Shown here: piece after piece, positions 10,074 to 12,906 of the stretch | How the letters are laid out: each line of letters opens with the position of its first letter | Numbering within the stretch: position 1 is the stretch's first letter | Source of the DNA: an uncultured Flavobacteriales bacterium | GTDB lineage: Bacteria > Bacteroidota > Bacteroidia > UBA10329 | Direction: 5' to 3' | DNA length: 34,172 nucleotides | Assembly (NCBI GenBank): GCA_937900875.1 | Contig: CALCGD010000163.1 | Location: 1 to 34,172, forward strand | Notes under the pieces: generated by a model | Database searches by the model: none | What the model was told of the DNA's origin: nothing | The model's input: the letters and a program-made list of their open reading frames with translations, nothing else | Program-made: the position numbers and the translations under genes

Positions 10074-10574
10074 ATGAGTCAAGACGCATTTGAATCCTTA
10101 GCTACGCACAACATTAAATTTTTAGTGCTTGATGTAGATGGTGTAATGACCGATGGTGGCATGTATTACACTGAATCTGGAGATCAGTTCAAGAAATTCA
10201 ATACAAAGGATGGAATGGCAATCAAGATTGTTCAGGAAAAAGGAATAAAAGTGGCTTTCCTAAGTTCAGGAAGCACCGAACATATCATTCAGAATCGAGC
10301 AAAGACTTTGGGCGTTGATTGTGTTTATGTTGGTTCGAGACCAAAAATTGACGTGTTAAACGAATGGTGCGCTGAGCTTGGCTTTACCATGGAAAACGTA
10401 GCCTATGTTGGAGACGACATCAACGATTTGAAGGTAATGGATGTCGTTGCATTTTCAGGATGCCCTGCAGATGCAGTTGAAGCCATTAAACTTAAAGCCA
10501 ACGTAGTGCTGAATAGAAATGGCGGAGACGCCTGTGTGCGTGAATTCGTAGATGAGCATCTTCTCGATGATTGA
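10074..10574 (+). CDS. KdsC-like HAD phosphatase
   Basis: A 166-residue member of the C0-type HAD hydrolases that includes Kdo-8-phosphate phosphatase (KdsC). Motif I is LVLDVDGVMTDGG, with nucleophile Asp20 and acid/base Asp22. Motif II is in FLSSGS. Lys91 (SRPKIDVL) serves motif III, and motif IV is YVGDDINDLKVM with Asp114, Asp115 and Asp118. Length fits the family, which works as a tetramer without a cap domain. Where E. coli KdsC reads TGRKAK, this protein reads SGSTEH, so the Arg is replaced by Ser67; the substrate may differ from Kdo 8-phosphate. Being 2 bases after the DAHP synthase gene, it may act on a related sugar-acid phosphate. Annotation as KdsC should be taken as family-level only. 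Confidence 0.8.
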   Translation: MSQDAFESLATHNIKFLVLDVDGVMTDGGMYYTESGDQFKKFNTKDGMAIKIVQEKGIKVAFLSSGSTEHIIQNRAKTLGVDCVYVGSRPKIDVLNEWCAELGFTMENVAYVGDDINDLKVMDVVAFSGCPADAVEAIKLKANVVLNRNGGDACVREFVDEHLLDD

Positions 10575-11151
10575 GAATTTCGACTATTACAATTACATAG
10601 GCGTTCCATTGCTCATATTCTTAGCGCGTGTTGTTGACACGAGTTTAGGGACACTGCGGATTGTGATGATTAGCCGAGGAAATCGAAAAGCGGTTCGGAT
10701 GGTCGGTTTTGTGGAAGTATTGCTTTGGGTTATTGCAATCGGTCAAATTATTCAAAACCTAAACAACTGGGCCGGTTACCTTGCTTGGGCACTAGGCTTT
10801 ACTGTTGGCAGCATGATTGGCTTCAAAATTGAAGACAAACTTGCTCTGGGAAAGCATCAACTTCGAATAATCACTTCTCAGCCTATTGACGCATTTTTGG
10901 AAGCGCTAAAAAAGATTAACCAAGGATTTACAGTGTTTGACGGCATGGGCGCTCAAGGTCCTGTGAAACAGATTTTTCTCATTCTTAATCGTCAGAATAA
11001 CCGTGAAATAACTGCCATGGTGAAGCAGCATATTCCAACGAGCTTCTGTTCTGTAAGTGATGTAATGGCAACCGATAGCGGCATTTTTAACACCAAAAAA
11101 AGAGAGTTCGATTTGTCTGGATTGTTACTTCCATTGCGAAAGGGAAAATGA
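10567..11151 (+). CDS. UPF0316 / DUF2179-type membrane protein
   Basis: A 194-residue membrane protein of unknown function. It begins FDYYNYIGVPLLIFLARVVDTSLGTLRIVMISRGNRK, the typical start of UPF0316 proteins. Further hydrophobic segments follow (VGFVEVLLWVIAIGQII and LAWALGFTVGSMIGFKIEDKLALG). Residues from about 100 are soluble and match the C-terminal DUF2179-like part (QLRIITSQPIDAFLEAL... FTVFDGMGAQGPVKQIFLILNRQ). I chose the ATG at 10567 because it aligns with the usual family start; an ATG at 10552 in the same frame is possible. The start overlaps the phosphatase stop by 8 bases, so it ends this operon. No structural link to sugar metabolism is visible. Confidence 0.83.
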   Translation: MIENFDYYNYIGVPLLIFLARVVDTSLGTLRIVMISRGNRKAVRMVGFVEVLLWVIAIGQIIQNLNNWAGYLAWALGFTVGSMIGFKIEDKLALGKHQLRIITSQPIDAFLEALKKINQGFTVFDGMGAQGPVKQIFLILNRQNNREITAMVKQHIPTSFCSVSDVMATDSGIFNTKKREFDLSGLLLPLRKGK

Positions 11152-11180: not shown

Positions 11181-11188
11181 TACCTTTG
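11181..11188 (+). promoter_or_regulatory. Promoter -7 box (TACCTTTG) of a small RNA candidate
   Basis: TACCTTTG is an exact TAnnTTTG match, 30 bases after the end of the upstream operon, with no plus-strand gene following. A strong terminator lies about 80 bases downstream. The same octamer precedes the lipoprotein gene (134-141) and carA (33814-33821) on the minus strand. Confidence 0.6.
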
Positions 11189-11193
11189 CAGTG

Positions 11194-11272
11194 TCTTCAG
11201 TTTATGGTGAACTGTTGACAAGCTTTAGGAGCCGCAGAAACCCGTCACAGGTGGAGCGGCTTCTTTTTTTTT
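11194..11272 (+). ncRNA. Candidate small structured RNA (about 75-80 nt)
   Basis: The stretch between a perfect promoter box and a terminator has no protein frame apart from a four-codon ATG (Met-Val-Asn-Cys-stop at 11204). It can fold as a small hairpin, CAGTT/AACTG with a 7-base loop (11199-11215). A longer one follows at 11228-11263: GGAGCCGC pairs with GCGGCTTC (one G-U), and an inner ACC/GGT closes a loop of seven. Nine T end it. It shares the GGTGAAC string found in bacterial SRP RNA but lacks the GGAA tetraloop and the AGCA side, so I do not call it SRP RNA. It may be a trans-acting small RNA or antisense to the 3' end of the convergent serine hydrolase gene. Confidence 0.45.
11228..11272 (+). 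terminator. Rho-independent terminator
   Basis: The stem GGAGCCGC (11228-11235) pairs with GCGGCTTC (11256-11263) and is followed by nine T (11264-11272). The T run includes the first two bases of the stop codon of the convergent gene at 11271. It can terminate both the small RNA and read-through from the upstream operon. Confidence 0.75.
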
Positions 11273-12377
11273 ACAACTGATCTACAATTTGCCTGAACAC
11301 ATGGCGCCACCTAACACGCTCAGCAGCTACTTTATCATCCTTGTTTGCCATTAATACAATGATGATTTTCTTGGAAGGATGAACGTAAATATGTTGTTTG
11401 TACATGCCATCAGCCATGTAATCTCCGTAGGCTTTCTCGCCAATGTGCCAATTGTAATTGTATCCGAAACTGCTTCCGTTTGCAGTGTCTCTACTCACCG
11501 ATTTTTCAACCCAATCAATTGGTACAATCTGATTTCCATTCCAATTTCCATTATTGAGAAATAGCCGACCAAATTTGGCATAATCTAAAGCTGTTGCACC
11601 CATGCAGCAAAAGGTTTTGTCCGCTCCCTTTTTATCCGTAGTCCAAATAGCATCCGAACACATATCAATCGGTTTCCAGATTTTCTCAGTTAGGTATTCA
11701 GAAGGCTTTTTACCAGTAGCGCGATGAAGAATTAATCCTAAAAGCTGTACATCCAAATTGATATATTCTTGGTAAGTGCCTGGCTGGTGAGCAAACTCAA
11801 CGCTTCTGAGTGCTTTGGTAACATCATTGCCATAGTATAACTGAGCATCGGTCATCAATTTCAACTTGATACCGGAAGTCATATTGAGTAGGTGTTCAAT
11901 TTCCAGTTTTTCAGACATCGCAATGCCTATCAGCTCTGGTATATAATCAATCACTTTATCGTTTACGTTCTTAATCTTGCCTTCATTAATTGCAATTCCA
12001 ACTAATGCAGACGTAAACGACTTTGCTACTGAATAAGAAGGATTGACGTCTGATGCAGACGTATTCTGTCCGTAATATTCATAGAGCAGGGTATCGTTTC
12101 TGATAATGAGCATACTCCGAACCGGTCTCGATTCGTTTAATTCATTGAGTGTAACGAAATAAGGACTACCACTACTCCAATCCGTCACCTTCATGTTTAA
12201 AGCAACTGTCTTAGTGTCATCTTCAAACTCAAAACAATCAGTCCCTGCAGCTATTGTAGAGGATGGAAACCTATGAATATCATTATGATCCGGGAAGCCC
12301 AGAAAAACGCCTCTCATTAAGGTGCAGCCCGAAAGCAAAATGCAAAGGAGAATATAAGTTGCCGATTGAAATCTCAT
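11271..12377 (-). CDS. Lipoprotein serine hydrolase, beta-lactamase/DD-peptidase fold
   Basis: A 368-residue member of the class C beta-lactamase / penicillin-binding-like serine hydrolase family. The signal peptide MRFQSATYILLCILLSGC ends in a lipobox with Cys18. The catalytic SxxK motif is Ser116-Val-Ala-Lys119 (in PSYSVAKSF), and the YxN motif is Tyr205-Ile-Asn207. Family blocks such as LLNMTSGI, FGYNYNWHIG and the C-terminal VHPSKKIIIVLMANKDD are present. Substrates in this family range from muropeptides to esters and amides; antibiotic resistance should not be assumed. I use the ATG at 12377 because it starts the signal peptide directly; a longer version from 12395 adds six residues and overlaps the DinB gene. 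It follows that gene by one base, so the two form an operon. It is convergent with the small RNA. Confidence 0.85.
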   Translation of the reverse strand: MRFQSATYILLCILLSGCTLMRGVFLGFPDHNDIHRFPSSTIAAGTDCFEFEDDTKTVALNMKVTDWSSGSPYFVTLNELNESRPVRSMLIIRNDTLLYEYYGQNTSASDVNPSYSVAKSFTSALVGIAINEGKIKNVNDKVIDYIPELIGIAMSEKLEIEHLLNMTSGIKLKLMTDAQLYYGNDVTKALRSVEFAHQPGTYQEYINLDVQLLGLILHRATGKKPSEYLTEKIWKPIDMCSDAIWTTDKKGADKTFCCMGATALDYAKFGRLFLNNGNWNGNQIVPIDWVEKSVSRDTANGSSFGYNYNWHIGEKAYGDYMADGMYKQHIYVHPSKKIIIVLMANKDDKVAAERVRWRHVFRQIVDQL

Positions 12378-12378
12378 G

Positions 12379-12906
12379 CTATTTGTATCGCTCATTCAAA
12401 ATTCTGAGATGATGTTCAATATGATAGATGGTGAAATACAGCATTTCTCTAAAGGTCAGTTTGCCAATTAGTGGATGAGGAACAGCCGTATTATCTAAGT
12501 TAGATTCTGACCATTTATGAAGGTTATTAACCAAAATTCCCATTTCCGATTTAAAGCGATTTACCAATACTTCTCGCTCATCTTTTCTTACAACTCTTGG
12601 CACAAAAACTCCTGTTGCTTGCCCTCCCGCAGCTAGAGCATCTGTATATTTTTCAATCAATGCATGGTAGTCTAAACTTGGTGATTTCACTTTTCCAAAC
12701 TTCCATCTAAGCAATAACCGTGGGTAACCAGCACCTACTGCCAACGGCTTTGTGCTCTTAATCATGTGTAACAAATGCTGTCCTGCCGTCCAAGCACCTT
12801 CAGGTCCATTTTCCATGGATTGAATCGGACGATTTATGTACCACCCTACCAATTCTTTGGTTTGCCTATCAAGTTGCTCAATAATCTCCTTTTTGGTGTA
12901 GCGCAT
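12379..12906 (-). CDS. DinB superfamily protein
   Basis: A 175-residue four-helix-bundle protein of the DinB/YfiT superfamily. The likely metal-binding histidines are in AGQHLLHMIKS near the start and in IYHIEHHLRILNERYK at the C-terminus, the usual three-His arrangement. Members include thiol-dependent transferases for bacillithiol or mycothiol and many uncharacterised proteins; the activity here cannot be told. I chose the ATG at 12906 (MRYTKKEIIEQL) rather than 12972, because a TATCTTCG promoter box ends 3 bases before it and the extra 22 residues look unlike the family. It is the first gene of a two-gene operon with the serine hydrolase. Confidence 0.78.
   Translation of the reverse strand: MRYTKKEIIEQLDRQTKELVGWYINRPIQSMENGPEGAWTAGQHLLHMIKSTKPLAVGAGYPRLLLRWKFGKVKSPSLDYHALIEKYTDALAAGGQATGVFVPRVVRKDEREVLVNRFKSEMGILVNNLHKWSESNLDNTAVPHPLIGKLTFREMLYFTIYHIEHHLRILNERYK

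Follow-up and report, generated by a model that had tools for sequence, protein, structure and literature searches.

A sharply bounded intergenic element is a probable clade-specific small RNA gene in one genus of uncultured Flavobacteriales

The stretch of DNA analysed here, which we refer to as the window, comprises 34,172 nucleotides from an uncultured Flavobacteriales bacterium. A short element lies between a gene for a DUF5698/DUF2179 protein on the same strand and a convergent gene for a serine hydrolase, and had been put forward in the initial annotation as a small RNA with its own promoter, two hairpins and a terminator. The features of the element and the two genes outside it are as follows.

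10552-11151, plus strand: upstream gene, DUF5698/DUF2179, outside the element; its stop lies 29 bases ahead of the box
11181-11188, plus strand: predicted -7 promoter box, TACCTTTG, a match to TAnnTTTG
11189-11192, plus strand: variable bases -4 to -1, between the box and the predicted start (mean pairwise identity 0.55)
11193-11219, plus strand: stem-loop 1, GUC uu CAGUUUA ugg UGAACUG uu GAC, from the predicted fold; 10 of 10 pairs are kept in five genomes
11220-11226, plus strand: linker, unpaired in the fold of the window and mostly conserved; AAGCUUU in the window, AAGCUUG in most copies
About 11227-11265, plus strand: stem-loop 2, predicted to act as the hairpin of an intrinsic terminator; its internal and apical loop, AGAAACCCGUCACAGGUGGA, is conserved
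11264-11272, plus strand: nine-T tail; the stop codon of the convergent gene shares its final two bases
11271-12395, minus strand: convergent serine hydrolase (Pfam Beta-lactamase), outside the element; the syntenic right-hand neighbour

The housekeeping promoter is outlined as TAnnTTTG at -7 with TTTG at about -33, and in the account of PMC9723704 the sigma-A box TAnnTTTG of Flavobacterium psychrophilum sits at -12 to -5. With the box of the window placed at -12 to -5, the predicted transcript start, +1, falls at 11193, which is the first base of both stem-loop 1 and a nearly invariant block described below. In the five genomes that carry the element the -7 box reads TACCTTTG, TACCTTTG, TACCTTCG, TACCTTTA and TACATTTA. 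Positions T1, A2, C3, T5 and T6 are invariant; two boxes match TAnnTTTG fully and three are a single letter off, the TTTG part being TTCG in one genome (G008) and TTTA in two (G001 and G005). The box by itself is not unusual, because TANNTTTG matches the window 22 times against 35.8 expected by chance. A TTTG at -33 was observed in only one of the five homologues, G008 (-36 to -33), and is missing from the window genome; PMC7366714 reports no identified -33 motif in F. johnsoniae either. The promoter had been called perfect, which was overstated: the TACCTTTG box is present, but four of the five copies lack a -33 box and three have an altered TTTG.

At the DNA level, 59 related genomes were searched, counting the one that holds the window, and five of them, all from one genus, contain the element. 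A covariance model built from the five copies gave one strong full-length copy (112-117 bits) in each of five of the nine genomes of the genus, and these were the same five carriers: G000, which is the window genome, G001, G004, G005 and G008. Searching named genomes with a 25-letter pattern identified two Flavobacteriales records, UBA10329 (DMRV01000224.1) and Tobar13m-G11 (JAIOYP010000030.1), which are carriers G001 and G005, as their neighbouring genes are 100% identical. Both are metagenome-assembled genomes, and work on sRNAs in Flavobacteriales has been sparse. Plasmids, phages and viral contigs were also searched and gave no match to the element, and the rest of the 395 genomes of the class gave no convincing match to the covariance model. 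Two matches in other genera were not accepted, one in G310 (27.5 bits), which is antisense within a 341-codon ORF, and one in G085 (28.6 bits), which lies between ORFs and covers mainly stem-loop 1; about 0.15 matches of this sort are expected by chance in 395 genomes. Further weak matches within the genus (19-22.6 bits) resemble only parts of the element and were not accepted. The match in G085, a genome from another family (L026 1300-1357, minus strand), has a TACTTTT box, a stem-loop similar to stem-loop 1 and an ACAAG motif, and may be a product of chance.

The remaining four genomes of the genus, G002, G003, G006 and G007, contained no accepted copy. G002 is 83% complete and closest to G004, with a DAHP synthase gene identity of 92.8%, and the contig stops within its serine hydrolase gene, exactly where the element would come next. 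We did not count this as an absence, since the contig ends at the expected site. G003 is 76% complete, with an SRP RNA 99% identical to that of G005. G006 and G007 are both 95% complete and are the most distant members by DAHP synthase (65-69% at the DNA level); the region flanking their serine hydrolase orthologue has no copy. This distribution is what an RNA of one subclade would show, present in every member that can be judged.

Over alignment columns 13-85, corresponding to 11193-11265, the predicted transcript is 93.2-98.6% identical in the ten pairs formed by the five copies, and 65 of the 73 columns are invariant. Conservation in relatives had been set as the point that would decide against the candidate if lacking, and the five copies, at 93-99% identity, pass it. 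Protein genes of the same genomes are far below this level, with 71.2-80.5% for the DAHP synthase gene (six pairs from G000, G004, G005 and G008; G001 gave no match) and 67.0-76.7% for the serine hydrolase gene (six pairs from G000, G001, G004 and G008). The SRP RNA, compared in six pairs from G000, G004, G005 and G008, is 90.9-99.0% identical, and the element is thus as conserved as the SRP RNA within the genus. Mean pairwise identity rises from 0.23-0.29 in upstream blocks of 20 bases to 0.82 in the box, falls to 0.55 over the next four bases, reaches 0.98 in the following 20 bases and drops to 0.24-0.33 downstream. This is not the conservation of a whole region, because the flanks are at chance identity (0.23-0.33). 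Near-complete conservation begins exactly where the spacing of a flavobacterial promoter would place the transcription start, and the coincidence of the block's start with the predicted +1 is, in our view, the strongest argument for a promoter.

The predicted RNA from 11193 to 11272 has a minimum free energy of -28.2 kcal/mol, with z = -3.13 against 200 shuffled sequences, one of which was equally stable. The two hairpins of the initial annotation were recovered at 11193-11219 and about 11227-11264, with the seven-base linker separating them, and the same two stem-loops are predicted in all five copies with z scores of -2.6 to -3.7. Standard pairs make up 99.1% of the 115 pair cells in the five genomes; within stem-loop 2, 98% of cells are paired in the outer stem and 100% in the inner stem. 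Two-sided changes occur in none of the 23 pairs of the five copies. Covariation could not show up here because the copies are too similar, and it neither supports nor refutes the predicted fold. The transcript has seven distinct substitutions; six of them fall at unpaired bases or leave their pair intact, which is only a weak tendency to avoid breaking pairs (permutation p 0.08).

Stem-loop 2, at -17.8 kcal/mol, is the most stable hairpin found ahead of any of the 39 runs of at least six T in the window, and is not listed by a simple terminator scan that requires a loop of 3-8 bases. The hairpin and nine T that had been described as a strong terminator are present, and the T run at 11264-11272 reaches into the stop codon of the minus-strand gene at 11271-12395 as claimed, but the nine-T tail is not conserved. 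The pure run is private to the window genome; the other four copies have interrupted U-rich tails, the weakest being GTGCTTT in G005. These tails bear on the possibility that the block is a portable terminator or 3' end, read through from the upstream gene and giving no RNA of its own. The box does lie only 14-29 bases past a same-strand stop codon in four of the five carriers (135 in G005), and the second hairpin of the window genome is a good-looking terminator. A terminator needs neither conserved loops nor a 5' stem-loop, yet 65 of the 73 columns are invariant, and the T tail, which would be its chief need, is the least conserved part. The genes that would be read through are also unrelated to one another, and we consider this explanation rather unlikely.

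The upstream neighbour is different in all five carriers and always on the same strand as the element. It encodes a DUF5698 protein in G000, a Beta-lactamase-family protein with a Por secretion tail in G004, an alpha/beta hydrolase in G008, a TonB-dependent receptor in G001 and TauE in G005. On the other side, G000 and G004 have the serine hydrolase directly next to the element, and G008 has it one gene away, behind a phosphatase-like gene. From the serine hydrolase side G008 (L072) is collinear with the window for about 18 kb, from about 12.4 to 30 kb; the two do not share what lies upstream of the element. In G001 and G005 neither neighbour is shared. Position thus marks the copies of three genomes as orthologous; in the other two the element has been separated. 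The next gene is convergent in four of the five carriers, and G001 has about 170 bases between the element and the start of the following ORF on its strand. This bears out the earlier statement that the element is not a 5' leader. A local cis role does not fit, because the upstream genes differ in all five genomes and both neighbours in two.

The changing neighbourhood, seen beside an SRP RNA gene order that is largely kept in the genus, might also be expected of a short, non-autonomous mobile or repeat-like element, in which conservation would come from recent movement and not from function. The element is present as a single copy in each of the five carriers, however, and it has no counterpart in the plasmids, phages and viral contigs. 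The three copies on the serine hydrolase side, together with the 18 kb of collinearity in G008, show orthology by position, and the most diverged pairs of copies are those involving G005, as they are for the SRP RNA. This origin appears quite improbable to us. It is also conceivable, although unlikely, that a self-contained sRNA cassette, from box to terminator, moved intact and was re-inserted just behind stop codons. If so, the location would be free while the sequence is frozen, and the site may perhaps be a preferred one for rearrangement or integration. Some tRNA and tmRNA genes are preferred sites of this kind. An attempt to find an empty site through the gene that adjoins the element in G005 gave no clean one, as the neighbours of that gene differ in G003 and G004.

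We also considered whether the element encodes a small protein or is a coding remnant. The initial annotation had found no frame beyond four codons, and this holds for ATG starts (ATG GTG AAC TGT TGA) but not for the frame from 11182, which is open across the element in four of the five genomes (11182-11280, plus strand, in the window) and reads TF..SSVYGELLTSLRSRRNPSQVERLLVFY in most copies. In this frame four of the transcript's seven distinct substitutions are synonymous, and so are the box changes in columns 4 and 7. The copies have no start codon in common; only the window genome has a GTG, at 11191, that opens 29 codons, and a one-base deletion in G008 shifts the frame. The synonymous bias is not significant: permutation p is 0.16 for this frame and, when the best of six frames is taken, 0.38, or 0.09 and 0.22 with the box included. 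Searches of Pfam, PHROGs, NCBIfam, plasmid and PDB sequences gave no match, and those of phages only partial matches with E of at least 3. A small protein or a coding remnant is very improbable.

The element does not correspond to a known RNA family. Rfam 15 gave no match in the window at the gathering threshold, and only weak ones at relaxed thresholds, such as BcKCsr2 with 13.5 bits against a threshold of 40 (E 0.65). The comparison that had been proposed, including SRP and flavobacterial motifs, thus returned no family. The covariance model of the bacterial small SRP RNA (RF00169) has no match at the element. The two RNAs are alike in length and in their level of conservation within the genus, and differ in that the SRP RNA has its own gene, located elsewhere in eight of the nine genomes, whereas the element has no Rfam match. 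The 6S-Flavo RNA (RF01685) has no match in the window, and a search across the genus gave none in nine genomes; no positive control gave a match in that search either, so the genus may still have this RNA. Novelty is claimed here only in the sense of no match in Rfam 15; in kind, the element belongs with the known clade-specific sRNAs.

In Bacteroidota, independent intergenic sRNAs have been recognised by their own start site, coverage and a Rho-independent terminator, according to PMC7366714. The element is likewise intergenic with a predicted intrinsic terminator, and only its T tail overlaps the stop codon of the neighbour. GibS of Bacteroides thetaiotaomicron, as described there (PMC7366714), is similar in being intergenic, conserved at the genus level and ended by an intrinsic terminator, and both RNAs come from a phylum without Shine-Dalgarno sites. 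In contrast, GibS is about 145 nt long with a conserved unstructured 5' seed and a PM2 promoter, while the element, compared with it by description only, is about 76-80 nt with a predicted 5' end inside a stem-loop. Rfp18 of F. psychrophilum is a further flavobacterial independent sRNA that is strongly folded and conserved beyond the species, and its predicted targets are described as pairing with one stem-loop (PMC9723704); it is found in a different carrier group, and this comparison too is one of description, not of sequence.

Taken together, we put the probability at roughly 0.72 that the element is an independent, clade-specific gene for a small, presumably regulatory RNA of about 76-80 bases. 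The original proposal of a small RNA draws good support from the comparison, since five conserved copies are predicted to fold alike within unrelated flanks; covariation was seen in none of the 23 pairs, and transcription is inferred. In this model a flavobacterial housekeeping-type promoter, with its -7 box at 11181-11188, would start transcription near 11193. Termination would take place in the T run, behind the hairpin that ends at about 11265. The product would be a stable RNA of about 76-80 bases, with stem-loop 1 at its 5' end, then the short linker, and last the terminator stem-loop with its conserved loop. Because no neighbour is constant, a role in cis is unlikely and action in trans is probable. 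The RNA may then base-pair with mRNAs through the conserved loop of stem-loop 2 or a segment of the linker, which are the candidate contact regions, and would have no local partner gene. The linker (11220-11226) is a possible pairing region, and in the folds modelled for homologues some of its bases may pair with the tail. The RNA could also bind a protein. Strictness similar to that of the SRP RNA, confinement to one group and differing neighbours would suggest an important task that needs no particular neighbour, and the element makes a clean candidate for the study of sRNA action in a phylum without Shine-Dalgarno sites.

Possible targets were sought with the complement of two conserved segments, allowing up to three mismatches. 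The complement of the loop segment gave 20 sites against 34 in the reversed control and therefore no excess. The complement of the stem-loop 1 segment gave 78 sites, five of which are the element itself, against 26 in the control. We inspected nine sites from both searches, and none lay near the start of a gene shared by the carriers. One site is present in G000 and G004, within an orthologous ORF of about 430 codons and some 140-160 bases from its start, where 16 of 18 bases match the stem-loop 1 complement (position 1501; L108, L118, L098). It was rejected as a target, and is probably coding conservation, because G007 shares the site yet is without the element.
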